Shown here: piece by piece, positions 5,581 to 24,049 of the stretch
Layout: the number at the start of each line of letters is the position of its first letter
Numbering within the stretch: position 1 is the first letter of the stretch
DNA from: a virus
IMG/VR virus record: IMGVR_UViG_3300017598_000430
Span: 1 to 29,708 of that record
Length of the DNA stretch: 29,708 nucleotides
Strand: one strand, 5' to 3'
Program-made: the position numbers and the translations under genes
The notes under the pieces: generated by a model
What the model was told of the DNA's origin: nothing
The model's input: the letters and a program-made list of their open reading frames with translations, nothing else
Database searches by the model: none

Positions 5581-5604
5581 CTGAAATAAAAAAGGAGTAG
5601 ATTT

Positions 5605-6039: not shown

Positions 6040-6051
6040 TTATAACTCAAC

Positions 6052-6079
6052 GAGAGGGCGTCTTAACCGGCGCTCTCTC
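6052..6079 (+). terminator. Hairpin after the capsid/decoration block
   Basis: GAGAGGGCG (6052-6060) pairs with CGCTCTCTC (6071-6079): nine pairs including one G-U, with a ten-base loop. It follows the last decoration gene and precedes the lipoprotein gene. No U-run follows, so it is not a classic intrinsic terminator. It could act as a weak terminator, an attenuator, or an mRNA-end stabiliser. T7 has a terminator at the comparable place after its capsid gene. A short palindrome CCTTTAAAGG follows at 6082-6091 and overlaps the next ribosome binding site. Confidence 0.4.
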
Positions 6080-6100
6080 TAACCTTTAAAGGAGAAAGGT

Positions 6101-6844: not shown

Positions 6845-6856
6845 CAGGAGATTATT

Positions 6857-7420: not shown

Positions 7421-7429
7421 GGAGTAATT

Positions 7430-9418
7430 ATGGCACAATCAGCACCATGGCTCAATAATTGGGCGAATGGAGAAGTCAGTCCAAAATTCTTTGGACGTTT
7501 TGACGTTACTGAAAAATATAATTCTTCTGCTGAAACCCTTGAAAATATAATTGTAAATCATTTTGGAAATGCACAGCGGCGGCCTGGTACCTATTATGTT
7601 GCCTCTGCTAAACATAAAGATATGAAATGCCGTCTTAAAGCATTTCAATTCTCTACTGTACAAAATTATATTCTTGAATTTGGACATCAATATATTCGAG
7701 TCTTTAAAGATTCTGGTAGAGTCCTCGATGCCAGTGATGTTGTTTATGAAATTTCAACTCCGTATCAAGAATCACATCTCTTTCAATTACAATTCGCACA
7801 AACTCATGACATAATGTATATAGTTCATAAAAACTATGCCCCTAGAAAATTGTCTCGTACCGGTCATGCGTCATGGTCATTAAGCATACCTAATATGAAA
7901 TGGGGTCCATTTAAAACAATGAATGTAACTGATACAACTATGGATGCTTCTGCTGTTACTGGTTCAATTACAATAACTGCTTCAGATGATTTTTTTACTG
8001 CTGATATGATAGGCGGGTACATTAAAATGCATTCTGGCTATGCAAAAATAACAGGGTATTCATCTGCTACAGTTATAAACGCAGTAGTAAAAGATGATTT
8101 TTCCGCACATACCGCAACTGCTGATTGGTATATTGGTGCTTGGTGTGATGAATATGGTTGGCCTAGTTGTATTACATTTTATGAACAACGGGCAATTTAT
8201 GCTTCAACCAGTGACGAACCTCAAACTCTTTGGGCTTCTCGTCCTGAAGAATATGAAAACTTTAATGTAGACGATGCTTCAGACGACGACGGTTATATCT
8301 ACACTATCGCAAGTGAACAAGTAAACTCAATTAAATGGCTTAATGCTGGACGGATTCTTGCTATCGGTACTGAAGGCGGTATCTGGAATATGTCATCAGG
8401 TTCAGACGCTAATGCAATCACTCCGTCAAACGTAGTAGTTAAACGTGAAACAACTTACGGCGCTAATTCTGTCTTACCAAAACGTATTGGTAACTATGTA
8501 TATTATATCCACCGTAATGGCCGTACTGTCCGTGAATTTTCTTATACATTTGAAGAAGATTCATACTCTGCACTTGATTCTACATTATTATCAGAACATA
8601 TAACCACATCAGGTATAGTAGACATGGACTACCAGCAATCTCCTGAGAACATTCTCTGGTGTGTTCGTGATGATGGAGTTCTTGCTACAATGACACGACA
8701 AATCCCGCAGAAAGTAACTGCATGGACACGACAAATAATAGGCGGTTCTTTTGGTACTGGTAATGCCGTAGTCGAATCAGTCGCTATTATACCCAACGGT
8801 GAAGAAGATCAAGTTTGGTTAGTTGTCAAACGTACAATTCTTAACGAAACAAGACGCCATATTGAATATCTTAAACCATACGATTGGGGCACTAATGACG
8901 AAGATATATTTTTCGTAGACTGTGGTTTGACCTACGACGGTGATGCCGCCACAACTCTTACCGGGCTTGGTCATTTACCTAATGAAACCGTTACTATTCT
9001 AGCCGACGGACAAACACATACAACTAAAGTAGTAAGTAACGAACAAATAACTCTTGATCGTGAAGCTAAAAAAGTTCATGTTGGATACAATTATAATTCT
9101 ACTTTACAAACACTTAAACTCGAAGCCGGTTCTAAAATCGGTACTTCACAAGGTAGATCAAAACGTACATCTTCAATTATGCTACGTTTATATAAAACTC
9201 TCGGTATGACATTCGGTACACCTACTCAACAAGACCGTATATCATTTCTTAAAGACGGTATTACAATGGGTAGTCCTTTGACTTTATTTACCGGTGATAA
9301 ACATTTAACATATCCTGGTGGTTGGGACCGCAATATGCAAATAAAAATAATACAAGATCAACCTTTGCCGATGACAATACTCGGTATCTTTCCGTGGATG
9401 TTTACGGCTGATAATTAA
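7430..9418 (+). CDS. Tail tube protein B (nozzle, T7 gp12-like)
   Basis: 662 residues (T7 gp12 is 794). The N-terminus, NNWANGEVSPKFFGRFDVTEKYNSSAETLENIIVNHFGNAQRRPGT, is the typical podoviral nozzle start ('f..GevSP.l.gR.D...Y..g...l.N......Gg..rRpGt'). Following segments also match: LKAFQFSTVQNYILEFGHQYIRVFKDSG, LQFAQTHDIMYIVHKNYAPRKLSR, and CDEYGWPSCITFYEQRAIYASTSDEPQTLWASRPEEYENF (about 240-280). It forms the hexameric tail tip through which DNA leaves and to which fibres attach. Confidence 0.94.
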   Translation: MAQSAPWLNNWANGEVSPKFFGRFDVTEKYNSSAETLENIIVNHFGNAQRRPGTYYVASAKHKDMKCRLKAFQFSTVQNYILEFGHQYIRVFKDSGRVLDASDVVYEISTPYQESHLFQLQFAQTHDIMYIVHKNYAPRKLSRTGHASWSLSIPNMKWGPFKTMNVTDTTMDASAVTGSITITASDDFFTADMIGGYIKMHSGYAKITGYSSATVINAVVKDDFSAHTATADWYIGAWCDEYGWPSCITFYEQRAIYASTSDEPQTLWASRPEEYENFNVDDASDDDGYIYTIASEQVNSIKWLNAGRILAIGTEGGIWNMSSGSDANAITPSNVVVKRETTYGANSVLPKRIGNYVYYIHRNGRTVREFSYTFEEDSYSALDSTLLSEHITTSGIVDMDYQQSPENILWCVRDDGVLATMTRQIPQKVTAWTRQIIGGSFGTGNAVVESVAIIPNGEEDQVWLVVKRTILNETRRHIEYLKPYDWGTNDEDIFFVDCGLTYDGDAATTLTGLGHLPNETVTILADGQTHTTKVVSNEQITLDREAKKVHVGYNYNSTLQTLKLEAGSKIGTSQGRSKRTSSIMLRLYKTLGMTFGTPTQQDRISFLKDGITMGSPLTLFTGDKHLTYPGGWDRNMQIKIIQDQPLPMTILGIFPWMFTADN

Positions 9419-9429: not shown

Positions 9430-10047
9430 ATGGCTATTAGTGGTGGTGGTGGAGTAGGAATGGGTGCTTCAGGTGGAGGAGGAGTTTCTTCTTCTGGTAG
9501 TAGTGCTGGCGGCGGTGGTGGCGGTGGTGCTGCTATGGCGGTTGGTGCCGGCATACAAATATTTCAAGCTGCTTTTAGTGCTTATTTATCAGCCCGTCTT
9601 TCAAAAGCAACCGCTGAATATAACTCTGCAATTATCCAAGCCAATAATAAAATTCAACAGGCCGCGTATAAATTTGAAGTAAAACGGCAACGTGCAAGAG
9701 GCGCTAAACTTGTCGGCGCACAACGCTCGGCATACGCTAAAGCCGGTGTACGTTTCCGCGGATCTCCCGTAGACGTCATGGTAGAGACTGTTAAACAAAT
9801 AGAACTTGATGTATTTACTACTGAATTCAATGCAGAAGCCTCGTCATTCCGCGCTTCAATGGATATGCGCCAACAGAATTACATGGCCCGGCAATTCGGG
9901 CGTGATTCTAAAGTGCAGCCGTGGGTTCAAGGAATAAATACTCTTGCTTCAAATGTAATTAGTACAGGCGCTGAATACTATAAAGGTAAAGACCAAAGTG
10001 GTGAATATTCAGGCCGTACTGCTGGACAATTTAAGGTAGGTCGCTAA
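9430..10047 (+). CDS. Internal virion protein (T7 gp14-like)
   Basis: 205 residues (T7 gp14 is 196). Residues 1-35 are extremely Gly/Ser-rich, with runs of five to seven glycines, followed by a hydrophobic Ala-rich segment (36-60) and a long charged helix. The pattern AEYNSAIIQANNKIQQAAYKFEVKRQRARGAKLVGAQRSAYAKAGVRFRGSPVDVM is typical of gp14-family core proteins ('...rr.g..l.GaqraayA.sGv...GSp.dv'). In T7, gp14 is ejected and forms the outer-membrane channel of the DNA ejection machine. The Gly-rich N-terminus is longer than usual. Ends in a TAATG junction with the next gene. Confidence 0.82.
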   Translation: MAISGGGGVGMGASGGGGVSSSGSSAGGGGGGGAAMAVGAGIQIFQAAFSAYLSARLSKATAEYNSAIIQANNKIQQAAYKFEVKRQRARGAKLVGAQRSAYAKAGVRFRGSPVDVMVETVKQIELDVFTTEFNAEASSFRASMDMRQQNYMARQFGRDSKVQPWVQGINTLASNVISTGAEYYKGKDQSGEYSGRTAGQFKVGR

Positions 10048-11612
10048 TGCCAAAAATACCAAGAGCACCCAATGTACCGTTATATAATGCACAAAAAACT
10101 CTAGGCACTAAACGTGATTTAATGACTGGTCATGTTGCAGGACAAAAACGTGTTGAAGAACGTGATCCTACTGCTGCATTACGAGGTATGGACCAACTTG
10201 GCAAAGCCCTTGTTCAAGCCGGAATACATATGAAACGGGTAGATGATTCACGTCATATAAACGCGGCTTCTACTTCCTTAGCACAACAACTTGAAGATTT
10301 ACGAGAAGAACGTAATCGCGACGGTAACCCTGACAATGAACAAGAATACGATAACAAAGCACAGGAAATCTATGACGATATTTCTGGTAAACTTCCCGGA
10401 CATCTTCAAGCACAGTTTGAAGGTAGAGGTAAAAACTCTGTTCTTGCTACACAAGTAAATATGAAACATACATCATGGAACTTTAAAAAGGAAGCCAGTA
10501 AACAAACTGTTGATGAGGCTTTTGCACAGGCGTTAAGAGATTACAGCAGCGGTAACCCGGAACTTCAAGCTAATGCACAGAAAGATTTTCTTAATGCGTT
10601 ACAACTTGCTAGAAATGACGGTACATATACCGAAACTATGGTAAGAGGTATGCAACAGAAATGGATTGAAAAAGCGCCCTTAGCACAAGTTGATGGTGAA
10701 ATAGCCAGAATACAAGATGAAGATGATCTTAATGAAGTTGTTGCAAGACTTAAAGATAATACATATGGTATTCTTGATGATAAAGACCTTGAATCAAGAC
10801 GTACTGAAGCAGTAGCACAACATAAAAAAGTTAAAGCATTACGTGATTATCAAATTAATCTCAAGCGTCAAGATGCTGCAATGGCTGTTAACAAAGAACT
10901 TGAACAAAATCCATTGGCATATACCGCACCGCAATTAAAAGATATGATCGAAGCTGGTGATCTTGATTCAGTACTTGGTAACTTAATAATTAGTGGAATG
11001 AGAAAATCACATCTTAACGGACGTAATGTAGAAGAAGTAATAACCGAATGGCACTCAGATATTTTTCAAAAAAAGAGAAGTAAATTCTTTGGCAAAAATG
11101 GTCCAAAACGTATGAACGATAAAGATAAATTTGATTATCTTGCAGAATGGTATCGTGAAGGACAACGTATGGTTAATAACGGTGTTATGACACGACCAGA
11201 ATTTGTTAGTTATACTCAAACATTATATCCATTTATGATGCAATATATGCATACATATCATATTGGACAAGCTGTATCAGATGTTCTTGATTATTACGAA
11301 AAAGAATATAAACGCAAAAATCCATTTGAAAAGTTTATGCGCAATATTAATCGTCTTGGTGTATTTGATTACCAAGGACAACAATTTGGTATTCTTAAAG
11401 AAGACATTGAAACAATTACTAAACGTATTTGGGATACTGCATTTTATCATGTGCGTCAATGGAATATGACTGATGGTAAAGCCGAACTTCATTTCTCGGG
11501 TGATAATGTTGATGCCAAAGCAAGTAAATCCTCATTTGAAATTTTCCCTACTTCACACAATCCTGACGATTATCCGTTTGGTGCAGACAACGGGAGCATA
11601 AAAAAGAAATGA
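10047..11612 (+). CDS. Internal virion/ejection protein (gp15-like by position)
   Basis: 521 residues, strongly helical and charged, no membrane segment and no signal peptide. It sits between the gp14-like and gp16-like genes, where T7 gp15 (747 residues) lies, and is coupled to both (TAATG before, ATGA after). Residues 1-30 (RAPNVPLYNAQKTLGTKRDL) resemble the starts of podoviral core proteins. The rest contains heptad-like helices (for example QYDNKAQEIYDDISG, RMNDKDKFDYLAEWYREGQRM). Role inferred: periplasmic tube/hub of the ejection complex. It is shorter than T7 gp15 and sequence identity is not recognised, so the call depends on synteny. Confidence 0.68.
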   Translation: MPKIPRAPNVPLYNAQKTLGTKRDLMTGHVAGQKRVEERDPTAALRGMDQLGKALVQAGIHMKRVDDSRHINAASTSLAQQLEDLREERNRDGNPDNEQEYDNKAQEIYDDISGKLPGHLQAQFEGRGKNSVLATQVNMKHTSWNFKKEASKQTVDEAFAQALRDYSSGNPELQANAQKDFLNALQLARNDGTYTETMVRGMQQKWIEKAPLAQVDGEIARIQDEDDLNEVVARLKDNTYGILDDKDLESRRTEAVAQHKKVKALRDYQINLKRQDAAMAVNKELEQNPLAYTAPQLKDMIEAGDLDSVLGNLIISGMRKSHLNGRNVEEVITEWHSDIFQKKRSKFFGKNGPKRMNDKDKFDYLAEWYREGQRMVNNGVMTRPEFVSYTQTLYPFMMQYMHTYHIGQAVSDVLDYYEKEYKRKNPFEKFMRNINRLGVFDYQGQQFGILKEDIETITKRIWDTAFYHVRQWNMTDGKAELHFSGDNVDAKASKSSFEIFPTSHNPDDYPFGADNGSIKKK

Positions 11613-14600
11613 GAAGATTATATCTTAACGATAAAGATGAAACCGTAGAGTTTCAAGGTTATCCCACTCCTCCTCGCATGCATCAGGATATTGCCAAACG
11701 ATTTTATCAACATGACATTTCTTTTTTAGAATCAACTGGTGAAGTTTCAAAATCTGCAGTACGCGGTACATTTGGTCTGCTTGGTAGTCTCGGTGTACTT
11801 ACCTCATGGTTAGGCGATGACTTACAACATGAACCATTAAAACAAATCGCTGGAAATATAGGTCGTGGAGCTCAAGAAGATATATCACCTTTATTAAATT
11901 TTAATACTGGTGGATTCACAACTGTCGGTGAACGCTGGTTTCGGACAGATCCAAAAAAAGTTAAGAACTCTGAGTTTATTAATAAAATAGGATTATCTCT
12001 TGTGGACAATGGTAACGCTTGGTTTAAAAAATTTCAGCAACTACAACACTCCACGAAAATATTCGGTGTTGATATAGCAAAAGCAGATCCTCGTATCTTT
12101 CAAGGTAGTTTTATGGAAAACCCTTCTTGGACACGCGGGATATCCGCCGTAACTGCTGCAGTACCCTCTCTCTTTACTGCTGCTGCAATTTCTGGTTGGA
12201 CAAAAAATCCTGTTGCTGGCGCTGTATTACTTGGCGGGAGTGAGGGTGCTGTACAACGTCAAGAAGCTATTGAAGCCGGTAAATCCCGTAAACAAGCTAA
12301 TGTAATCGGTACGTTATCCACAATAGGCACAACAATACTTGAAGCGATAGCCCTTGATAAACTAATGAACTTTGGTTTTGCCCGTAAACTACGCAATATG
12401 CCCCGCGAGAAAATAGCCGAAACAATAAAAGGATTAGTCCACGAAAAACAAATTATGGAAGCTATTCGTCAAATTGGAAAAGGCGCTACTGTTGAAGGTA
12501 TACAAGAAGGCACGCAAACCTTATTCCAAAATGCTATTGCAAGATATGGTTATGAACCAACACGGAAACTTACCGAAGGATTGATAGAATCAATAATAGG
12601 CGGTGCTGGAAGTGGTGGTATTCTCGGTGCAATCGTTCCCGGAAACGCACAGCACATAGACACCGCCATAGAAGAATATAAAGCACATGGCGCTACTGAT
12701 CGTGAAATTCGTATGTTATATAATGACATAGTTGGTATGATATTAGATAAAGCTGATATAGTAGATGAAAAAATCAAAGATAGAATATATAAAGATATAT
12801 CACGCGGTACTCCTACTGAGAATATATTTGAATCTATTAAAGATATACGTTCCGTAGTTGCCTCAAATAAAGAAGTATCAATACCCGCGTTAATGCAATA
12901 TCTTCCCAGTAAACAAAAAGAACGCGCCCGTTTTACCGCTATAACAGAACCTTGGTTTGCTATGCGGAATTTAGCTGAGCATAGATCAACAGTTAACACC
13001 GCGCGTTTACAATCACGTATTGCAGAAGCACTTGGTAAAAAGAAAAGTAAATTTGCTCAGGCATTAAGACTTGGTTATAACTATGATAAAGACGTACAAG
13101 AATGGGACGCAGCCATAGGAGTTGCTGTTGACTTAAAACGTGATCCTAGTGTATTGCAAAAAATAATTGCCAATAGAACAGACGGCACACCCGTTACAGT
13201 TTATGATGCACTATCAGATGAACAAAAACGTATAGCTGATAAAGCACAATTACTTCTTGAAGAAGAAGTAGAACCAACTGATAAGACTAATATAGTTATT
13301 AAAAAAGCATGGCATACACCCGATTTATCATTTATTAAAAAATTCTTACGAGCAAAATATTCTTATTATTCGAGGTCTTATGGTAAATATTATGCTCTTG
13401 ATGCACCATTTACTAAAGAAGGTGGTACTGCAGGACAAGAAACTGTTAATTATAATCCAGAAAAAATTTATGATCCAGATAGTATTCTCAAAGGAACAAA
13501 TAAAACAAAATCAAAACAAGATGCAGTTTATTTAGAACAAACAGTTGCAGCCTATAAAAGTAAAATAACTTTAGAAATAACAAAAATTATTCAGTATGAA
13601 ACTATCAGTGAAAAGGTAGCTCGCTTTCGTACAGAAAAATTACAAGAACTTGGTTATGATGGCGAAGTAGGAATTATTCCAGAAGGACTTGAACCAAATA
13701 AAGAAGGACATAGAGAGTTGATTTTGTTTTATCCAAAAACTAAGCAAAAACAAATTGCAACATCCAAAGAAATACAAGACCTTAAAAAAATTATGGATGA
13801 TATACAACAGGGTTTAACACGTCTTGGTACAAGTGCTAAAGAAGCAAAAGTTGGTATAAAGAATTTGCGCAGAAACTATTTTCCTCGCAAATATATTTTC
13901 AAACCAGCTGGTGGAAGTTATGCTGCACGCAATACTGCATTTACAAAACATAGTAAAGAAGCCAAGTTTAATACTCTTGTTGAAGCATGGGCTTTTGGTT
14001 ATACATCCCGTTATCTTGGCGCTACTACTGCGTTGCAAGCCTATACTGCTGAACTTAATATAGTTAAAGCCGATAAACTATTTGCTAGTCGTATTAAAAC
14101 AATGCGAACAATGTCAGGTGAACAGTTTGCCCGGCCAACTAAAGAAGATGGATTTGCTAAACTTAATGCGCCATTATTCGAAGGTATGTACGTGCCTAAA
14201 GAATATGCTTCTGTAATTAATAATATGTTCGATGAAAGTAAACTTAAAGGCATTGGTATTATAGATACCATTACTAAATACAACGCACTCTTTAAAGCTA
14301 TTCGTCTTACTTCCTCTGTATTTCATCACGTAGCTTTTTTTAACTCTTATTTTTATGGGGTACAAGGAAAAGCTAACCGCGCTCTTAAACTATGGCGTCA
14401 AGGTAAAATAAAAGAAGGCGCTAAAGCATGGAACGAAGATGTTAATCCATTTCGCGCTTATCAACTTGGCTATGACATGATCTATTCCTCAGCTGCACTT
14501 ATGGAACACGGTATTAAGAACGGCCTTACCTTCGGCCGTATTCAAGACTGGAATGAATCAATAGTTCGTGAACGAAATGCTATTTCAAAACTTCTCAATA

Positions 14601-15670
14601 AATGGGGTGCTTCAAAACAAGTTAAAGATACACTCGGTAAATTCCGTGAAGATTATACCCATTATTTATTTAATGTATGGGGTGCCGGATTAAAAGCAAA
14701 ATCATTTGCTATTGAATATGCACATCACTTACAACGTAATCCTGGTATAGACGAAAATCAAGCAGCACGTGAAGTAGCTGATTTAGTCAATGACGACTTC
14801 GGTGGTCTACATTTACGCCGTATGGGAAGGAATCCTACTGTTCAACATTTGAACAGACTTCTATGGCTAGGAGCCGACTGGACAGAATCTAATATCAGAA
14901 CAATGTATAAAGTATTTGGACCGGGAACAACAAGTAAAAGTCATCAAGAACTATACCGCCGTTTCTGGACAGGTGTTTTTATGAAAGGCGCTATGGTAAC
15001 GATCCTTGGTAACATGATGATGGCAATAGCACAGAGGGACGATGATGATAAAGATGAATTTGAAAATCTTCTTTCCAATTATGTGGATGCTTGGGAAAGT
15101 GGCAAACTTAATCTGCTTCGTGTTTACCTCAATCCTATGGTTGAGCTTTTCGGCGGTACTCCTCATGACGATTATTATCTTAACCCTATCGGACATTTTC
15201 TCGATCCTGTTAAATGGTTCACTCGAGATATAAAAAAAGGCGATGACATACTCGGTGCAACAGGACAACTTGTTGACCCAACACGATTATTTACAGGATT
15301 GGCAAAATCGGTTTATTATAAGTCAAGTATGGCTACCAAGCCAATTTACGACTTTCTTAAAGGTACAGATTATACATTCTGGCGAAAGTTCAAAACCCTT
15401 GATGAACTCATGACTGGCAAAAATTTGACAGCTGATGATAAAGCTTTACTTGTTCGCTGGAAAAAATGGAACGAACATGTTAAACTTGGAATAGAGCCTA
15501 ATCAATATTTAAGTTTTACTTTATATCAGCTTGCTCAGTTAGTACCAGTACCAATTCAAACTTTATGGTACTCAATATTTGGTGAGGCCGAAGCGATAGA
15601 AACGTTACCAAGATTATTTGGTCTTGATGTTAGACCAGCATATAACAAAAAAAAGAGGAGTAAGAAATGA
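11609..15670 (+). CDS. Large internal virion/ejection protein (gp16-like by position)
   Basis: 1353 residues (T7 gp16 is 1318). Starts in ATGA with the preceding gene. Residues about 175-245 hold Ala/Gly-rich hydrophobic segments (AVTAAVPSLFTAAAISGW, AGAVLLGGSEGA, TLSTIGTTILEAIALD) and about 325-345 another (GGAGSGGILGAIVPG), which suit insertion into the inner membrane. The C-terminal third has LTSSVFHHVAFFNSYFYGVQG (about 905-925), then RFWTGVFMKGAMVTILGNMMMAIAQRDDDDKDEF (about 1112-1146) and LNPIGHFLDP...DPTRLFTG, a layout common in very large phage virion proteins. No lytic transglycosylase motif is seen, unlike T7 gp16. Role inferred: inner-membrane part of the DNA ejection conduit. Coupled to the fibre gene by ATGA. 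Confidence 0.75.
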   Translation: MRRLYLNDKDETVEFQGYPTPPRMHQDIAKRFYQHDISFLESTGEVSKSAVRGTFGLLGSLGVLTSWLGDDLQHEPLKQIAGNIGRGAQEDISPLLNFNTGGFTTVGERWFRTDPKKVKNSEFINKIGLSLVDNGNAWFKKFQQLQHSTKIFGVDIAKADPRIFQGSFMENPSWTRGISAVTAAVPSLFTAAAISGWTKNPVAGAVLLGGSEGAVQRQEAIEAGKSRKQANVIGTLSTIGTTILEAIALDKLMNFGFARKLRNMPREKIAETIKGLVHEKQIMEAIRQIGKGATVEGIQEGTQTLFQNAIARYGYEPTRKLTEGLIESIIGGAGSGGILGAIVPGNAQHIDTAIEEYKAHGATDREIRMLYNDIVGMILDKADIVDEKIKDRIYKDISRGTPTENIFESIKDIRSVVASNKEVSIPALMQYLPSKQKERARFTAITEPWFAMRNLAEHRSTVNTARLQSRIAEALGKKKSKFAQALRLGYNYDKDVQEWDAAIGVAVDLKRDPSVLQKIIANRTDGTPVTVYDALSDEQKRIADKAQLLLEEEVEPTDKTNIVIKKAWHTPDLSFIKKFLRAKYSYYSRSYGKYYALDAPFTKEGGTAGQETVNYNPEKIYDPDSILKGTNKTKSKQDAVYLEQTVAAYKSKITLEITKIIQYETISEKVARFRTEKLQELGYDGEVGIIPEGLEPNKEGHRELILFYPKTKQKQIATSKEIQDLKKIMDDIQQGLTRLGTSAKEAKVGIKNLRRNYFPRKYIFKPAGGSYAARNTAFTKHSKEAKFNTLVEAWAFGYTSRYLGATTALQAYTAELNIVKADKLFASRIKTMRTMSGEQFARPTKEDGFAKLNAPLFEGMYVPKEYASVINNMFDESKLKGIGIIDTITKYNALFKAIRLTSSVFHHVAFFNSYFYGVQGKANRALKLWRQGKIKEGAKAWNEDVNPFRAYQLGYDMIYSSAALMEHGIKNGLTFGRIQDWNESIVRERNAISKLLNKWGASKQVKDTLGKFREDYTHYLFNVWGAGLKAKSFAIEYAHHLQRNPGIDENQAAREVADLVNDDFGGLHLRRMGRNPTVQHLNRLLWLGADWTESNIRTMYKVFGPGTTSKSHQELYRRFWTGVFMKGAMVTILGNMMMAIAQRDDDDKDEFENLLSNYVDAWESGKLNLLRVYLNPMVELFGGTPHDDYYLNPIGHFLDPVKWFTRDIKKGDDILGATGQLVDPTRLFTGLAKSVYYKSSMATKPIYDFLKGTDYTFWRKFKTLDELMTGKNLTADDKALLVRWKKWNEHVKLGIEPNQYLSFTLYQLAQLVPVPIQTLWYSIFGEAEAIETLPRLFGLDVRPAYNKKKRSKK

Positions 15671-16425
15671 CAATATCCACCGAAACTTCAAAACTTGTTT
15701 ATACATGTGATGCCTCAACTGTAATATTCCCATATACATTTTATATCATCGAGGACAGTAATTTAAAAGTTATCCTTTACACTATTGCCGACGGTACTGA
15801 AACAGAACTTACACTAACCACTCATTATACTGTATCAGGCGCAGGAAATACTACTGGCGGTAATGTTACAACTGTGGCCACTTACTCAGCTGCGTATAAA
15901 ATAATCATTGAGCGTGATATGCCATATACACAAACAGTAGATTATACAACTGCCGGCGACTTCTCTGCAAGTAATCATGAAACCGCACTTGATAAAATCG
16001 TTATGCAGATACAACAACTTCGTAACGATCTTAACCGTGCACTAATCCGCGACGTTACTCAAACTGCTCAATTACAATTACCTGACTTTGAAGCGGGGAA
16101 GTTTCTTTATACCGACGGCTCTACATTATCATGGGCTGATGATACCGACCTTTCTGGTATTACTACCTGGACCGGTACAATAGGCAACGGCCTCGATGCA
16201 AACAAAACCGCGACACCTACTAAAAATGATTTATACTATGCAACCGATACGCGTAAATGGTACTTCTGCTATGCCGATAATAATTGGCAAGATATGGCAC
16301 ACGTTGCAATAGCTTCAGGCAATACATTTAAAGTTATGGATTCAAGTTTAAATACAGTAATGGATATTGATGAAAATGGTAATATCCGTTGTACCGGAAC
16401 AGTAACCGCAAACCATACATTTTAA
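15667..16425 (+). CDS. Tail fibre anchor, T7 gp17 N-terminal-type
   Basis: 252 residues. Residues 1-125 match the T7 fibre N-terminal domain that binds the tail: FPYTFYIIEDSNLKVIL (about 21-37), LTTHYTVSGAGNTTGGNVTTV (about 50-70), YKIIIERDMPYTQTVDYTTAGDFSASNHETALDKIVMQIQQLRNDLNRAL (about 77-126). Residues 130-252 give a short fibre segment with DLYYATDTRKWYFCYADNNWQDM, a domain often seen in fibre shafts, then a repeat-like end SNT..DIDENGNIRCTGTV. It lacks a long shaft and receptor tip (T7 gp17 has 553 residues), so the fibre is probably completed by other subunits encoded downstream. No signal peptide. Starts in ATGA with the preceding gene. Confidence 0.88.
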   Translation: MTISTETSKLVYTCDASTVIFPYTFYIIEDSNLKVILYTIADGTETELTLTTHYTVSGAGNTTGGNVTTVATYSAAYKIIIERDMPYTQTVDYTTAGDFSASNHETALDKIVMQIQQLRNDLNRALIRDVTQTAQLQLPDFEAGKFLYTDGSTLSWADDTDLSGITTWTGTIGNGLDANKTATPTKNDLYYATDTRKWYFCYADNNWQDMAHVAIASGNTFKVMDSSLNTVMDIDENGNIRCTGTVTANHTF

Positions 16426-16435: not shown

Positions 16436-17050
16436 ATGAAAGATGTTATTATACTTACTGTACTTTCAGTAATTCTTTTATTTTTTGTTTCTATTGCTCA
16501 TGCTTTACCTTCTGAATTTAATGATCTTTCAGTATCAAATGACCTTAGTGTATGGGGCCAGGGTGTGTTTAATGATGATGCTTCAGTAGCAAGTGATTTA
16601 ACTGTTTCCCGTAATATGTCAGTAGACGGTACATTCTCCGCTGTACTTGATCTAGTTGATATTAGTAATGACTTTACCAGTGGTGGTGGTACGTTTACAA
16701 GTAATTCTTACGTTGATCTTGGGCCTGGTGCTGCGCCTGACCTTTCTATTACCACAACTATTGAACATGCTGACAATCCTATTATAATTGACTATGATGT
16801 TACTGCTACTAATTCCGGTTCAAATAATATGAATTATTTTATTCTTGAAATAGATGGTTCTGATATCACTGGTACTGAAAGTATTGAAACAATGGGCGCT
16901 GCAGCTGATTATGCACATCATGGCGGAACATGGAGTACAACACAAACTGCCGGTACACATGATTTTACTGTTCAATGTAAAACTCAAACTGGTACCTTAA
17001 CCGTTAATGATGGTACATTACGTGTTATAGAATTTAAAGAACGAAAGTAG
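16436..17050 (+). CDS. Fibre-like beta-rich protein with Sec signal peptide
   Basis: 204 residues. Residues 1-23 look like a Sec signal: MKD, hydrophobic VIILTVLSVILLFFVSI, then AHA before Leu24. After this come short repeats of the kind NDLSVSNDLSVWG, SDLTVSRNMSVDG (about 28-62), the same motif as in the large fibre-like protein at 18969. The C-terminal 130 residues are strand-rich (NYFILEIDGSDITG, AGTHDFTVQCKTQTGTLTV, LRVIEFK), resembling the small jelly-roll tips found on phage fibres. A fibre-tip role is inferred from this; export by a signal peptide is unusual for it. AAGGAG precedes the start. Confidence 0.72.
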   Translation: MKDVIILTVLSVILLFFVSIAHALPSEFNDLSVSNDLSVWGQGVFNDDASVASDLTVSRNMSVDGTFSAVLDLVDISNDFTSGGGTFTSNSYVDLGPGAAPDLSITTTIEHADNPIIIDYDVTATNSGSNNMNYFILEIDGSDITGTESIETMGAAADYAHHGGTWSTTQTAGTHDFTVQCKTQTGTLTVNDGTLRVIEFKERK

Positions 17051-17056
17051 GCATAT

Positions 17057-17872
17057 ATGCTTAGATTATTTAGAGGTATAGATCCAAAACTAAAAGAAGA
17101 AGAAATTAAACTAAGACATCAAGTTGAAATTATGCAACCCCTTGTTAAACAACTCGAAGCAAAACTTCTTGAAATTCAAGGATTATGCCAAAAAAAACAT
17201 AGAAAAATAATAAGTATAGATACTACTATTCGTGATCGTGTTCAAAGAGCAAACGAACTTATTATTACCGGTGAAGAAGCTTTAAAATCCAGGCAAGAAA
17301 AATTAAATTTAAAATGGAACGAACAGGAAAACTTACTTGAAAATCGTAAACGTGAATTATCCAGACTCTTTGATAATTTTGCTATTCTTAAAGCATCTAT
17401 TGGTAAACGTGAACAAGACTGTGAAGATGAAGAAAGAAATATATCACAAAAACGTATGGAATTACGCAAGCAAGAACTCCTACTCGAACCAAAATTAAAT
17501 CAACTTAAAAGAGAAAAAAATGCTATTACTGATGAAATCGCTAAACAAACTCGTCTTATACAAGAACTTTTTCTTGCTAAGAAAAATACTAGACATCAAC
17601 AAGAATTACTCGATACTAAAATTGAATCTTATAAACTTATTATAGCCGAAAAAGATAAAGTACTTGCTCAACGTAAAGCATTAATTGACGATAAAGCTGA
17701 TATTAAATATAATCTTAATTACAATAAAGAATGGGAAAAACGTAATCAAATTGAATCTAACCGTCTTAAAAAACTTAAACACGAACTTGAAGATTTAGAA
17801 CTTAAAGTAAATAAAGAAAAACAGGAAATTACCAAACGAGAAAAGAAATTAAAGGAGAAAAGAAATGGTTAA
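17057..17872 (+). CDS. Long coiled-coil protein of unknown function
   Basis: 271 residues made almost entirely of charged heptad-like helix from about residue 10 to 270 (Lys/Glu/Leu/Gln-rich; examples VKQLEAKLLEIQGL, LENRKRELSRLFDNF, LKKLKHELEDLELKVNKEKQ). No signal peptide and no membrane segment. It interrupts the run of exported fibre-like proteins, and its end overlaps the next start by eight bases, so it is clearly co-translated with them. It could be a fibre shaft rod, an assembly chaperone or a tape/spacer; nothing in the sequence decides. No family recognised. Confidence 0.7.
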   Translation: MLRLFRGIDPKLKEEEIKLRHQVEIMQPLVKQLEAKLLEIQGLCQKKHRKIISIDTTIRDRVQRANELIITGEEALKSRQEKLNLKWNEQENLLENRKRELSRLFDNFAILKASIGKREQDCEDEERNISQKRMELRKQELLLEPKLNQLKREKNAITDEIAKQTRLIQELFLAKKNTRHQQELLDTKIESYKLIIAEKDKVLAQRKALIDDKADIKYNLNYNKEWEKRNQIESNRLKKLKHELEDLELKVNKEKQEITKREKKLKEKRNG

Positions 17873-18332
17873 ACGTATTGTATTACTCACAGTATTATTC
17901 ATCTTTATTGCTTTACCGGCTTATGCTACTATCGAAAATATTGCCGGGTTTGAGATTATTCAAATCACTAATTGTACCTTAAGCGGTACTATGTCCGTTG
18001 GTACAAGTGCGACATTCTATTCCAACACCTTTAAACTACATCCTGATCATGATATGAGTTTGGCTTATCTATTCGTATCAAGCGGTTCAGTAAGTGTAAC
18101 TTTATCACTTGAACAAGGACTTGAAGCGCCCACTACTGAGGGTGATGTTGAAACTGCAAAGTATGATGTACCGGTCGGTTCATCTGCTATTGAAACATGT
18201 ACGGTCGAGACCATGCGTATTGCAACACTTTCGCCAAAAGTTACACCATATGCACGTATTAAAGCCGTAGGTGGAGCTGGTAATCATTCAAGTACAACAT
18301 TTACTGCGTATTTAATAATAGCTGAAAACTAA
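17865..18332 (+). CDS. Beta-rich protein with Sec signal peptide
   Basis: 155 residues. Signal peptide: MVKR, hydrophobic IVLLTVLFIFIALPAY, AYA at 19-21 and mature start at Thr22. Mature part of about 134 residues is strand-rich with MSVGTSATFYSNTFKLHPDHDMSLAYLFVSSGSVSVTLSLEQG (about 43-85), a pattern common to small hypothetical virion proteins of environmental phages ('..F.L.....falay...s.gsv.v.ie.eq....Pt.E'). Two cysteines remain in the mature chain. Part of the exported run; AAAGGAG site inside the end of the preceding gene. Confidence 0.7.
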   Translation: MVKRIVLLTVLFIFIALPAYATIENIAGFEIIQITNCTLSGTMSVGTSATFYSNTFKLHPDHDMSLAYLFVSSGSVSVTLSLEQGLEAPTTEGDVETAKYDVPVGSSAIETCTVETMRIATLSPKVTPYARIKAVGGAGNHSSTTFTAYLIIAEN

Positions 18333-18343
18333 GGAGTTTAATC

Positions 18344-18958
18344 ATGAAGAAAGTTATCATTTTCTTACTATTCTTTTCTCTTGTTTTTATATCAACTTCC
18401 CACGCCTTTGAAGTACAAGGTCGTATGAAACTTGTCGATAAAAACACACCAGGCGTTATGTTATCAATAGACGATACTGTTTCTGGCGCTGTTGTTATTG
18501 ATGTTATGCACCGCGAAATACATGAGGGTAATGCATTTACTGCTTTCATATCTGACCTTGCATTAGCCGATGATGCATCTATTAACATAGTATTAACAAG
18601 TACGGCTTCTGTACATCTAAGAGTTGAGGGTGAAGTCGGTGGAGATAGTCAATTTTTTATGTATGAAGGACCGACACTAGCAACAGGAGGCACAGACTTT
18701 ACACCGATAGCTCTTAATCGTGAAATAAATTCAGCATCAGCTACAACCGTTGGTATTAATGCAGAATACGGCGCAACGGGTACAACTATACTGGATAGAA
18801 TCATTCCTGCTGGAACAGGAATCGCTGGTATAGCCGGAAGTACTGGTTCTGATAATGAATATATACTAATGCCTAATACTATATATATGATAAGAATTGA
18901 AAACGAAGCCGGCGCAGCCGAACTTGCTGGAATAACATTGAATTGGTATGAAGAATAA
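18344..18958 (+). CDS. Phage hypothetical virion-type protein with Sec signal peptide
   Basis: 204 residues. Signal peptide: MKK, hydrophobic VIIFLLFFSLVFISTS, SHA at 19-21 and mature start at Phe22. The mature sequence shows a pattern seen in many uncultured phage genomes near tail genes: MHREIHEGNAFTAFISDLAL (about 50-69), VHLRVEGEVGGDSQFFMYEGPT (about 86-107), LNREINSAS (about 124-132), EYILMPNTIYMIRIENEAG, ending in NWYEE. That family is usually annotated hypothetical/structural and normally lacks a signal peptide in my experience, so the N-terminal extension stands out. AAGGAG site precedes the start. Confidence 0.72.
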   Translation: MKKVIIFLLFFSLVFISTSHAFEVQGRMKLVDKNTPGVMLSIDDTVSGAVVIDVMHREIHEGNAFTAFISDLALADDASINIVLTSTASVHLRVEGEVGGDSQFFMYEGPTLATGGTDFTPIALNREINSASATTVGINAEYGATGTTILDRIIPAGTGIAGIAGSTGSDNEYILMPNTIYMIRIENEAGAAELAGITLNWYEE

Positions 18959-18968
18959 GGAGTAATTT

Positions 18969-20702
18969 ATGAAGTATATATTGCCTGTTGTAATTATTTT
19001 ATTTCTATGCACATCTGCCGAAGCCTTTGAACGCGGTTCAGGATATAACGAAGGTGACCTTCTGATGAAAGGCCATCAAATATGCGGTGATCAATCTACC
19101 GGTATTCACTTTGATCCTGATTGCGATAATTCAGATGAGGCTACACTTAACACTAACGGTACTTTACAATTAGGTAATATAGTATATCCCGCTACTGACG
19201 GTAATGCTAATGAAGTATTAAAAACCGACGGTGCTGGTACTATTGGCTGGGTGGCACAAAGTAGTGGTGAAGCAAATTTACTTACATATTACGATTCTAA
19301 TACATTACAACCCTTAACTGTATCTGATGATCTTTCTGTTCATTCCGTGAATATAAACGCTGTTAGTAATACAGAATTACAGTATTTAGACGGCGTGACT
19401 TCCGCGATACAAACCCAATTAGATGCAAAAGCTATGAAATTAACATACTTAGATTCTGATACTTTACAACCTTTAACAAAATCTGACGATTTAAGTGTTC
19501 ATTCAATTAATGTTAATGCAGTAAGTAATACAGAATTTCAATATCTTGACGGTGTATCTTCTGATATACAAACTCAATTAAATGCACGATACGAAGCTAA
19601 TGATAATATCTCAGTAGGTACTATTGCGGCAAGCGGATTGGCTACCATTAATAATAACCTTACTGTGCGTGGTGATTTAACTGTTAGTGAGAATCTAATG
19701 GCAGTAACTTACGGTTCAGACGGTTCAGTAACAGACGCAGAACTCTTATTCTTAGATGCAACAAGTAGTATCCAAACACAATTAAATGCTAAAGGAACTA
19801 CCACACTTACTGATGAAGCAAGTTTGTATTCTACGCTTTCTGATGTAACACAATTCTACGAATCAGGTGATAAGGTCGGGGATGCAGATACTCTTGATAC
19901 TCACGATAGTACATATTTTCAAACTGACCTGACAAATGAAGCAAGTTTATATTCTGCTTTATCAGACGTAACAGAATTTCTTGAAACAAGTGATGCAGCG
20001 ACGCTTACTTCTTTAGATACGGGTGAGGGTGCAAATGAGCTTTTTGATATGGACCAGAATGTCAAAACAACCAATAGTGTTGTATTCAATGATTTAAGCG
20101 TAGGCACAGATTTAACGGTTAATAATAATGTAAAAATCAACAATGACCTTTCAGTTGATAATGATTTATACGTTGCCAACAATATCTATATGACGGATAA
20201 CGGTTCAGCAGGAGAAATAGAATCTGTCTATGGTGACACATTAGTTTGTGATGATAATTTGTCAATAAACGGTACAGCAAAAACATTAGGTGATACAGAT
20301 GTTGGCGGTGAATTAACTGTTAATGGCGTTCAAATGAACGAAGACGTTTGGGAACTTAATGTTTTAAGTCCAAGTGATGTATCAACGGATTTAAGTCAAA
20401 ATAGTACATATATAGGAACAAATATAAAAGGTGTAACCGTAACAATAACGGAAATAAAACTACACGCTGTTGGATATGACGACACAGCTTGTACCATTAA
20501 AGAGCATACCTCAACTACCGAACCTCTTGAAGATATGACAACAGTTGATGCTATTAACTGTACTACTGGAAGTGGTATCTATTACGACACAGAAACAACA
20601 ATAACTCACGCAACTATTGAGAACGGGCATGAAGTATGGATAACTCTTGATACTACTGACGACCCGTCAAGTTTAGCGGGGTATATAAAATATGAATGGT
20701 AA
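18969..20702 (+). CDS. Fibre-like repeat protein with Sec signal peptide
   Basis: 577 residues. Signal peptide: MKY, hydrophobic ILPVVIILFLCTS, AEA at 17-19 and mature start at Phe20. Residues 105-208 form two tandem 53-residue repeats with the tail-fibre motif NTELQYLDGVTSAIQTQLDA, well known from phage fibres, and a third partial copy (DAELLFLDATSSIQTQLNA, about 257-275). Later come two copies of EASLYSxLSDVTxF and a stretch of NDLSVGTDLTVNNNV-type repeats, likely beta-helix or triple beta-spiral shaft. The C-terminal domain (about 455-577) is non-repetitive and contains VTITEIKLHAVGYDDTACTIKEH, perhaps the tip. It probably trimerises as a fibre. Its stop overlaps the next start by 11 bases. 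Confidence 0.8.
   Translation: MKYILPVVIILFLCTSAEAFERGSGYNEGDLLMKGHQICGDQSTGIHFDPDCDNSDEATLNTNGTLQLGNIVYPATDGNANEVLKTDGAGTIGWVAQSSGEANLLTYYDSNTLQPLTVSDDLSVHSVNINAVSNTELQYLDGVTSAIQTQLDAKAMKLTYLDSDTLQPLTKSDDLSVHSINVNAVSNTEFQYLDGVSSDIQTQLNARYEANDNISVGTIAASGLATINNNLTVRGDLTVSENLMAVTYGSDGSVTDAELLFLDATSSIQTQLNAKGTTTLTDEASLYSTLSDVTQFYESGDKVGDADTLDTHDSTYFQTDLTNEASLYSALSDVTEFLETSDAATLTSLDTGEGANELFDMDQNVKTTNSVVFNDLSVGTDLTVNNNVKINNDLSVDNDLYVANNIYMTDNGSAGEIESVYGDTLVCDDNLSINGTAKTLGDTDVGGELTVNGVQMNEDVWELNVLSPSDVSTDLSQNSTYIGTNIKGVTVTITEIKLHAVGYDDTACTIKEHTSTTEPLEDMTTVDAINCTTGSGIYYDTETTITHATIENGHEVWITLDTTDDPSSLAGYIKYEW
19281..19592 (+). repeat. Two tandem 159-bp repeats inside the fibre-like gene
   Basis: Period of 53 codons. 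Unit 1 carries TYYDSNTLQPLTVSDDLSVH...NTELQYLDGVTS; unit 2 carries TYLDSDTLQPLTKSDDLSVH...NTEFQYLDGVSS. The protein repeats are more alike than the DNA, which has diverged at third positions, so the duplication is old or under selection for protein structure. A second, shorter repeat pair (DEASLYSTLSDVTQFYESGD and NEASLYSALSDVTEFLETSD) starts near 19812 and 19935. Confidence 0.75.
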
Positions 20703-21534
20703 GTATATATTATTAACAATATTGTTAATTTTGTTATTAACTATTCCTTCTGATGCTGTACTTATAATACAACCATATAGAAGTACAAGTTCAGATACTA
20801 CTATTGTTACAAAAGTGATGGATTTAGATGGTACGGATGATTTATTTGACGGTACTGATATAGCAGCCCTTGATTCTGCAACCCAATTAACTGTTGCTAC
20901 TTGGATTTATCTTGACGGAGCGACAGCAGATGGTGTGGTAACTAAAGCAAACGGCACAAGTGATGGTTGGATAATTTGGCGAGATAATAGTGGAGTATCA
21001 AGAGATAATACTTTTGTTATGTTTGTTGCTGACAGTTCTGACTCAAGTAACACTCGTCTTGAAATGGCGGAAAATGCCGCCGCTACAGGTTCGTTTCTTC
21101 ATGTAGTTTTTACATTGGATTTAACAGGTAATGATTTACGTGGTTATATAGGTGGGAGTGAAGATGCCAATAGCCCCGTAGATGTTTCTGCTATAGCCGC
21201 TATTGATGCAGGAGCGAATGTTGTTAAAGTTGGTATCTGGCCCGATGGTTCTTCCGAACTTGACGGGAAAATGGGTGAAGTTGCTATTTGGGATAAAGAA
21301 CTTACATCAGCTAATGTAACGACACTTTATAATGGCGGTACTTTTGTATATGACAAACCTCTTAGTGTTGAATCGGGTAATCTAGTTGCTTATTGGAAAT
21401 TTCCTTATACCCAATTAAATATCAACGATTCGGGTGATGGCATAGTATTCACAGACCATTCTGCTAATAGCAACACAATAACAGGGGATAATGGTGCAAA
21501 TAACACAGGGCTTACCTGTATAGCAGTACCATAG
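20692..21534 (+). CDS. LamG/concanavalin-like lectin domain protein with Sec signal peptide
   Basis: 280 residues. Signal peptide: MNGK, hydrophobic YILLTILLILLLTI, PSDA ending near residue 22. The mature part is a single LamG-type jelly roll: VMDLDGTDDLFDGTDIAALDSATQLTVATWIYLDG (about 42-76), HVVFTLDLTGNDLRGYIGGS (about 138-157), VKVGIWPDGSSELDGKMGEVAIWDKELTSANVTTLYNGG (about 180-218). The pattern 'l.G.iDEv.iwn.aLs...i..ly..g' is the LamG end. Such domains bind sugars or other surface ligands and occur on phage fibres. Likely role: receptor or cell-surface binding. Start overlaps the previous stop, ribosome binding site weak. Confidence 0.82.
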   Translation: MNGKYILLTILLILLLTIPSDAVLIIQPYRSTSSDTTIVTKVMDLDGTDDLFDGTDIAALDSATQLTVATWIYLDGATADGVVTKANGTSDGWIIWRDNSGVSRDNTFVMFVADSSDSSNTRLEMAENAAATGSFLHVVFTLDLTGNDLRGYIGGSEDANSPVDVSAIAAIDAGANVVKVGIWPDGSSELDGKMGEVAIWDKELTSANVTTLYNGGTFVYDKPLSVESGNLVAYWKFPYTQLNINDSGDGIVFTDHSANSNTITGDNGANNTGLTCIAVP

Positions 21535-21542
21535 GAGAAGTT

Positions 21543-22952
21543 ATGAAAAAAATAATCCTTACAATTTTATTTCTTTTAATACCAACGGTAGTATTTTCTG
21601 CAGACCCCGTTATAAATAGTGTCCTTTCAGAAAACGGATTCCTTACCATTACAGGAACAAACTTTACTGAAAAGACAAGTGGTGATGTACCCGATACATG
21701 GGATGATTTTGAAGGTGGAACAGATGGTAATGCACTAACAAGTCCATACTCAAATATGGGTGGGGGTACTGCTTATTATGACGATGCACAAGCCATAGAC
21801 GGCATTTCTTATTACTCTTATGGATGGATGGGAGAAAAGCGGAATTTAAGCAATACATCAGCGATAGAAAACTATACGTCAATGTGGGTACGTTGGAATC
21901 ATAAAACAGGTACGAAATCAGGGAATGTATTTCAAATTAAAGGTGCAAGGGTAGGGCTTACTGGTTCGTCTAGTTATAGTGATCCTTGCAATTTACTTGT
22001 TACTAATTTTCGTCCTTATATAACTAATTATTACACACGATTATCATGGCTATCTGATTGGAATGTTTTTAGAGAATGGATTAATAAAGCCACTATCCCA
22101 GAAGATACATGGGTATTTTTAGAATCTTATGTCTTATTATCAGACCCCGCAGGCACAGCTAACGGTGAATGGTATTTTAAAACTGACGGTACAACACAAT
22201 ACACAGTATCGAATGTCGTAACCCGTAAAAACGGTTCTTCTATAACATTTGCAAATTTATTTCTAGGGTTTATTGTTGATATAGTTTCAGGTCATGCAGT
22301 TGAATATTGGGTAGATGATTTATATTCAGATGATAGTAATGATAGAGTAATGCTTGGTACAAATGAAACATACGGTTCCAATGCAGGATTTGCTATGCAA
22401 GATTGTACTGATGTTACTCCTGATGCTGACGGATGGGATGATACTGAAATAGTCGTTAATTATAACCAAATATCAAGTTCTTTAACAGAGTACGTTTATG
22501 TAATAGTTGATGGTGTTGCTTCTAATAGTAAGGAGATTTTAGAAGGTGGCGTTGGCGGCCCTCAAGCACCGCCAATTTCAAATGATTGTACGGTTAATAA
22601 TGTAAATATCGCTGAATGGGACAACGGAGATTCCTGTACTGTTTCAGGCATAGGGTTTGGTGCTTCTGGAAACGAAGTATGGATATGCGACGATGCTGAT
22701 ATGGGCGGTAGTTTATCAGTTGAACAAACTATTACAAACGAAGGAACGACATCAATAGATTTTACAGCCGTTCAAAGTACATTTAGTGATGGTGACACTG
22801 CATACGTTTTTGTTAAAGATAACGCAAGTAAAATAAGTAATGGCTTACAAGGTTCATGGTACGAAGAACCTCCAGCAGAAGATGAAGCACCTATAACAAT
22901 TATATTCAAAGAAGTCATAATTAACGGTATTCGTTATAAACAAGAAGAGTGA
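21543..22952 (+). CDS. Surface-binding-type protein with Sec signal peptide and IPT-like ends
   Basis: 469 residues. Signal peptide: MKK, hydrophobic IILTILFLLIPTVVF, FSA at 18-20 and mature start at Asp21. The first mature segment DPVINSVLSENGFLTITGTNFTEK (21-44) and a segment near the end (CTVNNVNIAEWDNGDSCTVSGIGFGASGN, about 350-378) both look like IPT/TIG immunoglobulin-like strands ('P.I..v...g....itG.nFg'). Between them lies about 220 residues of lectin-like jelly-roll character (MWVRWNHKTGTKSGNVFQIKG, WVFLESYVLLSDPAGTANGEWYFKTDG, VEYWVDDLYSDDSNDRV). Probable cell-surface or sugar-binding protein. It closes the fibre block. Confidence 0.68.
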   Translation: MKKIILTILFLLIPTVVFSADPVINSVLSENGFLTITGTNFTEKTSGDVPDTWDDFEGGTDGNALTSPYSNMGGGTAYYDDAQAIDGISYYSYGWMGEKRNLSNTSAIENYTSMWVRWNHKTGTKSGNVFQIKGARVGLTGSSSYSDPCNLLVTNFRPYITNYYTRLSWLSDWNVFREWINKATIPEDTWVFLESYVLLSDPAGTANGEWYFKTDGTTQYTVSNVVTRKNGSSITFANLFLGFIVDIVSGHAVEYWVDDLYSDDSNDRVMLGTNETYGSNAGFAMQDCTDVTPDADGWDDTEIVVNYNQISSSLTEYVYVIVDGVASNSKEILEGGVGGPQAPPISNDCTVNNVNIAEWDNGDSCTVSGIGFGASGNEVWICDDADMGGSLSVEQTITNEGTTSIDFTAVQSTFSDGDTAYVFVKDNASKISNGLQGSWYEEPPAEDEAPITIIFKEVIINGIRYKQEE

Positions 22953-23342: not shown

Positions 23343-23526
23343 TACTATCTGTAATATTTTTGAAAAATACATACTTCATTTACCAGAAATGGATGAAGAA
23401 ACATTTGATAAATTTATTATTCGTATAGAAAAATTTTCAAAAGCAATTTCACCAGTTGCCAAAGCTGTTGCTAAAGGTGTTGCTGAAGGTGGCGTAAAAG
23501 AATTGAGAAATAAATATGACATTTAG
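23326..23526 (+). CDS. Small helical protein in the lysis region
   Basis: 66 residues, ATG at 23326 with an AAGGAG site at 23314-23319. The N-terminal half is amphipathic helix (INTICNIFEKYILHLP), followed by DEETFDKFIIRIEKF and an Ala/Val/Gly-rich segment (ISPVAKAVAKGVAEGGVKEL). No clear transmembrane span of full length. Overlaps the peptidase gene by 11 bases. No family recognised; lysis involvement is by context only. Confidence 0.6.
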   Translation: MNPLINTICNIFEKYILHLPEMDEETFDKFIIRIEKFSKAISPVAKAVAKGVAEGGVKELRNKYDI

Positions 23527-24049
23527 ACCAGGTTCTATTATAATTGTAATTAAAGATTATACCCTTCGTTTATTACCAAAAGTAATTGAATTTTTTACTG
23601 ATACCGGAATCCATACCGCAAACTTTCACGGTAATGATCTTATTACCGAAGCATTATTTAAACAAGGTGTTGTGGAAAACTCCTTACAAAAATATTATGA
23701 CGGAAAAAGTGTATCTATTTTACTTGAACCGCGTATAGAATACTTTACAGATAAAACTCTCCAGACTGTCATTAAAAGGTGGAAGAAAGATATTGGAATG
23801 AAATATGATTATGGAAGTAATATTGGTACAGTCTTATGCACTAAAAGATTAAACTCGAAACACAGACGACGTTGTTCTGAACATACTGCACGAGGCTATA
23901 ATGGTATTTATTATTTTCTAGGTAGACAACATCCAGCAGTAACTCCTGCAGATATTTATACAGACGCACAAGCAACGGGGTTTAAATATTTTATGCCGTA
24001 TATATTACGAAGTTATTCCCCGCCCCGGCAAAGTGTCTTTACCCACTGA
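23516..24049 (+). CDS. YiiX/C92-type permuted NlpC/P60-like cysteine peptidase, candidate lysin
   Basis: 177 residues. The fold pattern is that of circularly permuted papain-like enzymes (YiiX/YaeF group): RPGSIIIVI (residues 4-12), then GIHTANFHGNDLITEALFKQGV (31-52) with candidate catalytic His33, then KYDYGSNIG (96-104) and RRRCSEHTA (117-125) with candidate catalytic Cys120, where the usual motif is 'yDy......C.rCSel'. Such enzymes cleave amide or peptide bonds, and NlpC/P60 relatives cut peptidoglycan peptides. Placed last in the late operon, after small membrane proteins, it is the best candidate for the endolysin. No signal peptide or amidase/lysozyme motif of other classes. The end runs into the convergent gene. 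Confidence 0.68.
   Translation: MTFRPGSIIIVIKDYTLRLLPKVIEFFTDTGIHTANFHGNDLITEALFKQGVVENSLQKYYDGKSVSILLEPRIEYFTDKTLQTVIKRWKKDIGMKYDYGSNIGTVLCTKRLNSKHRRRCSEHTARGYNGIYYFLGRQHPAVTPADIYTDAQATGFKYFMPYILRSYSPPRQSVFTH

Follow-up and report, generated by a model that had tools for sequence, protein, structure and literature searches.

Tail fibres decide the host of a phage, and they are generally taught as being made and attached in the cytoplasm. In epsilon15-like and HTVC010P-like podoviruses, the fibre or tailspike is one leaderless polypeptide with a docking domain, and no leadered fibre genes are shown by epsilon15 or HTVC010P. The present work concerns a 29,708-nucleotide virus record of IMG/VR (IMGVR_UViG_3300017598_000430, positions 1 to 29,708; this whole stretch is called the window), in which a short tail adaptor gene is followed by six genes for proteins with predicted Sec signal peptides (leaders), named here by their first positions. 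The genome plan and the N-terminal adaptor domain are shared with epsilon15-like and HTVC010P-like phages, and some of the leadered proteins match modules of the fused fibres of these phages over short stretches; the window differs in its short adaptor and in having separate genes, with leaders, for the remaining modules.

Other described systems resemble the locus in part. The adaptor domain of Bbp9 of Bordetella phage BPP-1 is homologous to the window adaptor, and the receptor-binding protein Mtd of BPP-1 is encoded by a separate gene, but Mtd, unlike the window proteins, is not known to carry a leader. The morons Lom and Bor of lambda and Llp of T5 are phage-encoded exported envelope proteins, and the window lipoprotein 6101 is like Bor or Llp; the six leadered proteins, in contrast, are neither lipoproteins nor predicted outer-membrane proteins, occur block-wise and in part seem to share virion-protein modules. 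Filamentous-phage coat proteins are virion proteins with signal peptides that are assembled outside the cytoplasm, but these phages belong to a different virus realm and their coat proteins keep a membrane anchor and are extruded, whereas the six lack an anchor. Sec-exported endolysins (signal-anchor-release and signal-peptide lysins) are likewise late phage proteins on the host Sec pathway, but they are single-gene lysis enzymes, unlike this block of structural-type proteins.

A literature search for tail-fibre modules with Sec leaders, with most subscription papers outside its scope, found no precedent. One paper (PMC5723332) mentions signal peptides in two Bacteroides phages of the rumen and, in the passages covered, does not analyse them further. 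The fibre modules of the window are of known kinds and their export is the new part. Shared with at least a dozen distant relatives, it suggests a fibre-delivery route through the cell envelope of which we found no description.

Sec Leaders of the Window Proteins

As judged from their sequences, the six proteins are very probably exported through Sec, and their leaders are predicted to be cleaved by signal peptidase. The chances are even that they are accessory tail-fibre modules that would be folded in the periplasm after export and joined to virions at lysis.

N-termini were evaluated with a rule-based signal-peptide scorer (n-region charge, 9-residue hydrophobic core, -3/-1 rule), which gave 5.8-8.6 on 23 known E. 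coli signal peptides. The six leaders scored 5.97-8.83 (Table 1), and all were as Sec-like as an earlier note on this DNA had described them, with an uncharged hydrophobic core (mean Kyte-Doolittle 3.1-3.5), an A-x-A-like end with small -3/-1 residues and a basic n-region, the exception being 16436 (MKD...), whose n-region has a net charge of 0. This leader is also the lowest scorer, above 5.8 and below the stricter cut-off of 6.5 applied in later work. The predicted signals are 23, 21, 21, 19, 22 and 19-20 residues long in gene order, and inspection of the six found no lipobox ([LVI][ASTVI][GAS]C), which is present only in 6101-6844. In the mature parts the highest 19-residue Kyte-Doolittle mean ranged from 0.62 to 1.53, with no window above 1.54, indicating no membrane helix; with no strongly hydrophobic window, these parts therefore look soluble.

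The leadered genes are not six in a row, as had been claimed, since the leaderless gene 17057-17872 breaks the run between the first and the second. Among structural genes upstream of the adaptor in relatives, 14 of 705 (2%) scored at least 5.8, and six leadered genes among seven consecutive ones would be expected by chance with a probability of about 4e-10. Together with recurrence in relatives and leader drift under retained function (both described below), this bears out the view of the earlier note that selection, and not chance, accounts for the leaders. Two further window genes scored at least 5.8, namely the lipoprotein gene 6101, whose exported product the note had overlooked, and the lysis-region gene 22954.

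Misplaced gene starts, with the true start downstream and the leaders as untranslated in-frame sequence, are a very remote explanation. A strong Shine-Dalgarno sequence lies 5-7 nt upstream of five of the six leader starts; 20692, which overlaps the previous gene, has none, a point in favour of a misplaced start there. In 18344 alone an internal ATG lies close to the mature start (at codon 28, accompanied by a weak AAGG), which could be read the same way, but the other five lack one, and leader function is kept in pairs of relatives whose leader sequences diverge.

Leaders as Probable Additions to Virion-Type Proteins

The earlier note had suggested looking for the same genes with and without a leader, and this comparison was positive for homologues of 18344, for modules of fused fibres and for the adaptors of two relatives, L293 and L307 (relatives are given L numbers). 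On these sequences the leaders look like additions to virion-type proteins. Homologues of 18344 (phrog_5335) are leaderless in 11 podovirus records (ten IMG/VR loci and Methylophilales phage MEP301), where the natural start aligns with the start of the mature window protein and the gene sits in the head-gene block, between terminase and portal. In 17865, residues 30-146 match positions 9-123 of the phrog_28213 profile; because the match begins at profile position 9, only 8 residues precede it, leaving no room for a leader. Of the structure models, that of mature 18344 by AlphaFold was all-beta with a predicted local distance difference test score (pLDDT) of 55, too poor to conclude from, and its weak Foldseek matches were not used; that of 17865, made without an alignment, was useless (pLDDT 38).

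Residues 57-104 of 18969 match an inner part of the fused leaderless fibres of L058 (584-627), L057 and L071, and residues 547-624 of a 768-amino-acid (aa) leadered protein of the relative vir555 (L016_23539) match the fused fibres of L087, L077 and L092. The fused fibres are long, leaderless and begin with the virion-docking domain, and the matches fall where a split-fibre model would predict them. The repeats of 18969 (residues 138 and 191) match pelagiphage structural proteins, from HTVC103P/104P, and a 717-aa leadered protein of L177 matches the virion structural family phrog_24595. Short matches thus point to shared distal fibre modules in 18969, and modules of this kind also occur in the L016 and L177 cassette proteins, whereas 18344 belongs to the leaderless head-block family and none shared with known or fused fibres were found for 16436 and 21543.

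The statement that several of the proteins carry recognised fibre or binding domains held for 20692, with its LamG domain, and was thin for the others. The CBM_6 match of 16436 was weak and below cut-off, Pfam and PHROG searches gave no family for 21543, and tblastn of 17865, 20692 and 21543 against phages returned no match. None of the six matched the virion-docking domain (phrog_1640 type), which only 15667-16425 carries, and they are therefore not classed as ordinary tail fibres.

In a homologous gene behind the adaptor of L388 and L389, the leaders are identical at 6 of 18 positions (33%) and the first 100 mature residues at 87 of 100, and both leaders are still good signals. The 72-nt leader of the first cassette gene of L020 and L177 contains 12 of 21 nucleotide differences, again with its function kept. 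Such drift beside a conserved mature start is what a targeting peptide that is cut off and discarded would be expected to show. It also bears on the idea that the N-termini stay uncleaved and serve as anchors or assembly plugs, through which trimers of the fibre would nucleate at the inner membrane or bind the virion. The long, strong hydrophobic cores would suit such a role, and L021 encodes a beta-helix-like protein behind an apparently true membrane anchor; yet all six leaders have good -3/-1 sites, leaderless homologues begin at the position of the mature N-terminus, and the leader drifts freely while residues past the cleavage site are conserved, so that we regard anchors as improbable. 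On the favoured reading, ordinary fibre modules would have gained leaders repeatedly.

A Leadered Tail Adaptor

The tail adaptor of L293/L362 is itself leadered (MFRLLLILCLLTFTAPVHA/TISSTTSRMDYTGNG, the slash marking the predicted cleavage site). Compared from its first mature residue onward, the L293 protein shares 64% identity with the leaderless L307 adaptor (MSISSTTNRNDYTGNG...). A GGAGG site precedes the L293 leader start, and no other adaptor was found in the record. A further adaptor scan of IMG/VR found no second leadered adaptor. That a docking domain here follows a Sec leader is the strongest reason to think that the exported proteins are destined for the virion.

Recurrence in Relatives

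Relatives were collected by scanning adaptor and nozzle alignments against IMG/VR and fetching the regions behind the adaptor. A scan with the window adaptor alone confirmed no relative, so that an alignment was needed, and a repeated adaptor scan with a second alignment gave nearly the same loci. The layout of a short adaptor followed by leadered fibre-like genes recurs in diverged podoviruses, in at least a dozen distant relatives. Six such genes were found in L177/L020, four in L083, about four in L273/L367, three in L293/L362 in addition to the adaptor, and three clear and one probable in vir555 (L016, BK063671.1). One each was found in Manatee Spring ct8d5349 (L015; 912 aa), L279/L369, L280/L376, L219/L375, L388 and L389/L390.

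The window and L177 share the order of adaptor, leadered block, two small proteins and hydrolase candidate, with nozzles only 30% identical, and in L177 too a leadered LamG protein comes late in the block. The L273/L367 cassette also holds a leaderless, apparently coiled-coil 285-aa protein (L367 4599-5456) that looks similar to 17057, and a chaperone or spacer role is possible for proteins of this type. The head-tail gap that holds the window lipoprotein 6101 also holds leadered genes in L016, L157 and L231. In L231 five leadered proteins (3281-8918; one beta-helix-like, one a lipoprotein) lie beside lysis genes, at a site that precedes the nozzle gene and is distant from the adaptor. The 48-kb podovirus contig L272 has leadered clusters at 3676-5444 and 19154-21255, one on each side of the nozzle gene.

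In 85 deduplicated loci, a leadered gene was among the first four genes downstream of the adaptor in 11 of 25 loci with an adaptor open reading frame below 500 aa versus 4 of 60 with one of at least 500 aa (p = 1.3e-4), and 4 of 359 upstream control genes were leadered. The four long-adaptor cases look like lysis or holin genes, and isolated genes with high scores in phages with long fibres (MIWAFVKAYWKQ..., MKVSENTS...) were classed as such and not counted further. One of the 11 short-adaptor positives, L021, probably has a membrane anchor rather than a cleavable leader. It has two consecutive adaptor-domain genes (371 and 253 aa; 10001-11958), and the beta-helix-like protein with the N-terminal anchor follows them. 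A nozzle tree of 61 rows implies seven or more changes of leader state, and that the trait has appeared repeatedly is a firm result. Phylogenetically independent pairs all agree in direction (4.2 vs 0), with a median p of 0.125; the pairs are too few for significance, and a short adaptor as the simple cause was not retained, its link with leaders being suggestive.

Some database labels of these relatives are unsafe or at odds with the genome. L177 was binned with a Pelotomaculum metagenome-assembled genome, a label unsafe for phage contigs. The label of vir555, Methanomicrobiales virus, is also unsafe, its virion genes being of the epsilon15/HTVC010P bacterial type. Limnohabitans phage DC33 (PQ492659.1, L193) is recorded under Inoviridae, and its genome is that of a 39-kb podovirus with an adaptor-type fibre gene.

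Proposed Route of Fibre Assembly

The gene order suggests that the adaptor and fibre genes would be transcribed late. Each fibre protein would be made with its Sec leader, predicted to be cleaved, and the soluble mature proteins would fold in the periplasm, where disulfides can form. Being soluble and anchorless, they would in a Gram-negative host stay periplasmic until lysis. The cytoplasm would meanwhile yield filled virions carrying the nozzle and the short adaptor, as established for related phages. Lysis would then mix the two pools, and the fibres would bind the adaptor or the nozzle, in the way seen with tailspikes in vitro; P22 tailspikes attach spontaneously to finished particles. That the exported proteins are assembled into virions we put at even odds. 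Tentatively, we propose a tailed-phage family that assembles fibres outside the cytoplasm, whose modules, and in one lineage the docking adaptor, would be exported through Sec, undergo maturation in the periplasm and reach the virion only when lysis mixes the pools.

Mature leadered proteins contain more cysteine than adaptors and fused fibres (0.93% vs 0.40%, p = 3e-9, a value that overstates the evidence because it is pooled over related proteins), which fits folding in an oxidising compartment.

The earlier note had left the choice between export to the envelope and a membrane-associated route of fibre assembly. The evidence leans to assembly, because soluble fibre modules adjoin the tail adaptor and the L293 adaptor is itself leadered. 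As the mature parts lack an anchor, pooling in the periplasm with assembly at lysis is more likely than assembly at a membrane. A role in the envelope would make the proteins exported non-virion effectors, that is, fibre and lectin modules in the periplasm or on the surface that mask receptors, exclude phages, stick cells together or act as shed decoys keeping progeny off debris. We consider this possible, though doubtful. It would agree with soluble exported lectin-like proteins (LamG in the window and L177), with the lipoprotein 6101 of the same phage, with the existence of known phage superinfection-exclusion lipoproteins, with the lack of a virion-docking domain in all six and with cassettes away from the adaptor; but the six have no surface anchor, autotransporter or lipobox, leadered proteins are homologous to virion modules, and in L293 the adaptor itself is leadered.

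Several points speak against periplasmic fibre maturation. Cassettes may lie in the head-tail gap, away from the adaptor and ahead of the nozzle gene (five leadered genes in L231, two in L157), and several short-adaptor phages lack leadered genes. The relatives of 18344 belong to a head module, so that 18344 need not be a fibre protein, the module matches are short (33-90 residues, E 1e-3 to 1e-10), and the leadered adaptor is known from one record. Some short adaptors end in knob-like domains, and those virions may already have complete fibres. The docking step is deduced from sequence.

Gene Content and Genome Context

The window contains portal, scaffold/protease, major head, tail-nozzle and internal virion genes of the epsilon15/HTVC010P podovirus type, with portal, head protein and nozzle in the corresponding order (phrog_332, phrog_3437, phrog_376). 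The nozzle protein (7430-9418) is 43-46% identical to nozzles of HTVC010P-group pelagiphages, and minus-strand DNA-metabolism genes occupy the region from about 24 kb onward. No large terminase was found in the window, and the record is therefore probably incomplete. The adaptor corresponds to the virion-docking domain at the N-terminus of tail fibres of the epsilon15/HTVC010P type and lacks their long distal part; its homologues include the N-terminal parts of the epsilon15 tailspike, of the HTVC010P fibre and of Bbp9.

Table 1. Positions and properties of the leadered genes and their neighbours in the window (slash, predicted cleavage site; SD, Shine-Dalgarno).
Feature	Position	Strand	N-terminal leader	Score	Other properties
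Lipoprotein, 247 aa	6101..6844	+	lipobox FIIGC		between major head protein and tail genes; seventh exported product
Short tail adaptor, 252 aa	15667..16425	+	none		phrog_1640 tail protein, residues 1-129, E 9e-41
Leadered fibre-like protein 1, 204 aa	16436..17050	+	MKDVIILTVLSVILLFFVSIAHA/LPSE	5.97	SD TAAGGAG 6 nt upstream
Coiled-coil protein, 271 aa	17057..17872	+	none		highly charged
Leadered protein 2, 155 aa	17865..18332	+	MVKRIVLLTVLFIFIALPAYA/TIEN	8.83	phrog_28213 E 7e-13
Leadered protein 3, 204 aa	18344..18958	+	MKKVIIFLLFFSLVFISTSHA/FEVQ	7.89	phrog_5335 E 1.7e-10
Leadered fibre protein 4, 577 aa	18969..20702	+	MKYILPVVIILFLCTSAEA/FERG	7.49	YLDGV[TS]SxIQTQL repeats
Leadered LamG/ConA-like lectin protein 5, 280 aa	20692..21534	+	...LLTIPSDA/VLII	6.74	Pfam Laminin_G_3 E 1.2e-14
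Leadered protein 6, 469 aa	21543..22952	+	MKKIILTILFLLIPTVVFSA/DPVI	7.51	SD AGGAG 5 nt upstream
Lysis-region-type protein, 80 aa	22954..23196	+	N-terminal hydrophobic helix after MANGKNGK	7.51	no SD
C92/NlpC-like hydrolase candidate, late-operon end	23516..24049	+			Pfam Peptidase_C92 E 0.043 (below cut-off); phrog_1128 E 6e-8

The 22954 product looks like a short membrane-anchored lysis-region protein and was left out of the count of fibre proteins. For 17057, Pfam and PHROG profile searches gave no convincing family match, and tblastn of the 1353-aa internal protein against phages gave none. Behind the major head gene lie two clearly related tandem genes of 143 and 144 aa (5149-5580, MNYTKYNSGFPADIIARG..., and 5605-6039, MNYTKHNSGTPVDIIARG...), probably a duplicated capsid decoration protein. 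L025 (IMGVR_UViG_2639762794_000019) is a different virus from the window, with an adaptor 45% identical and no appreciable shared 15-mers.

Implications

If fibres of this family are assembled outside the cytoplasm, the envelope could be where they acquire disulfide bonds or other modifications, fibres could be displayed on infected cells or released from them ahead of lysis, and lysis could time fibre attachment. Some viral metagenome proteins annotated as secreted could then belong to the virion. The trait occurs in diverged lineages, and a culturable member could therefore be tested directly.

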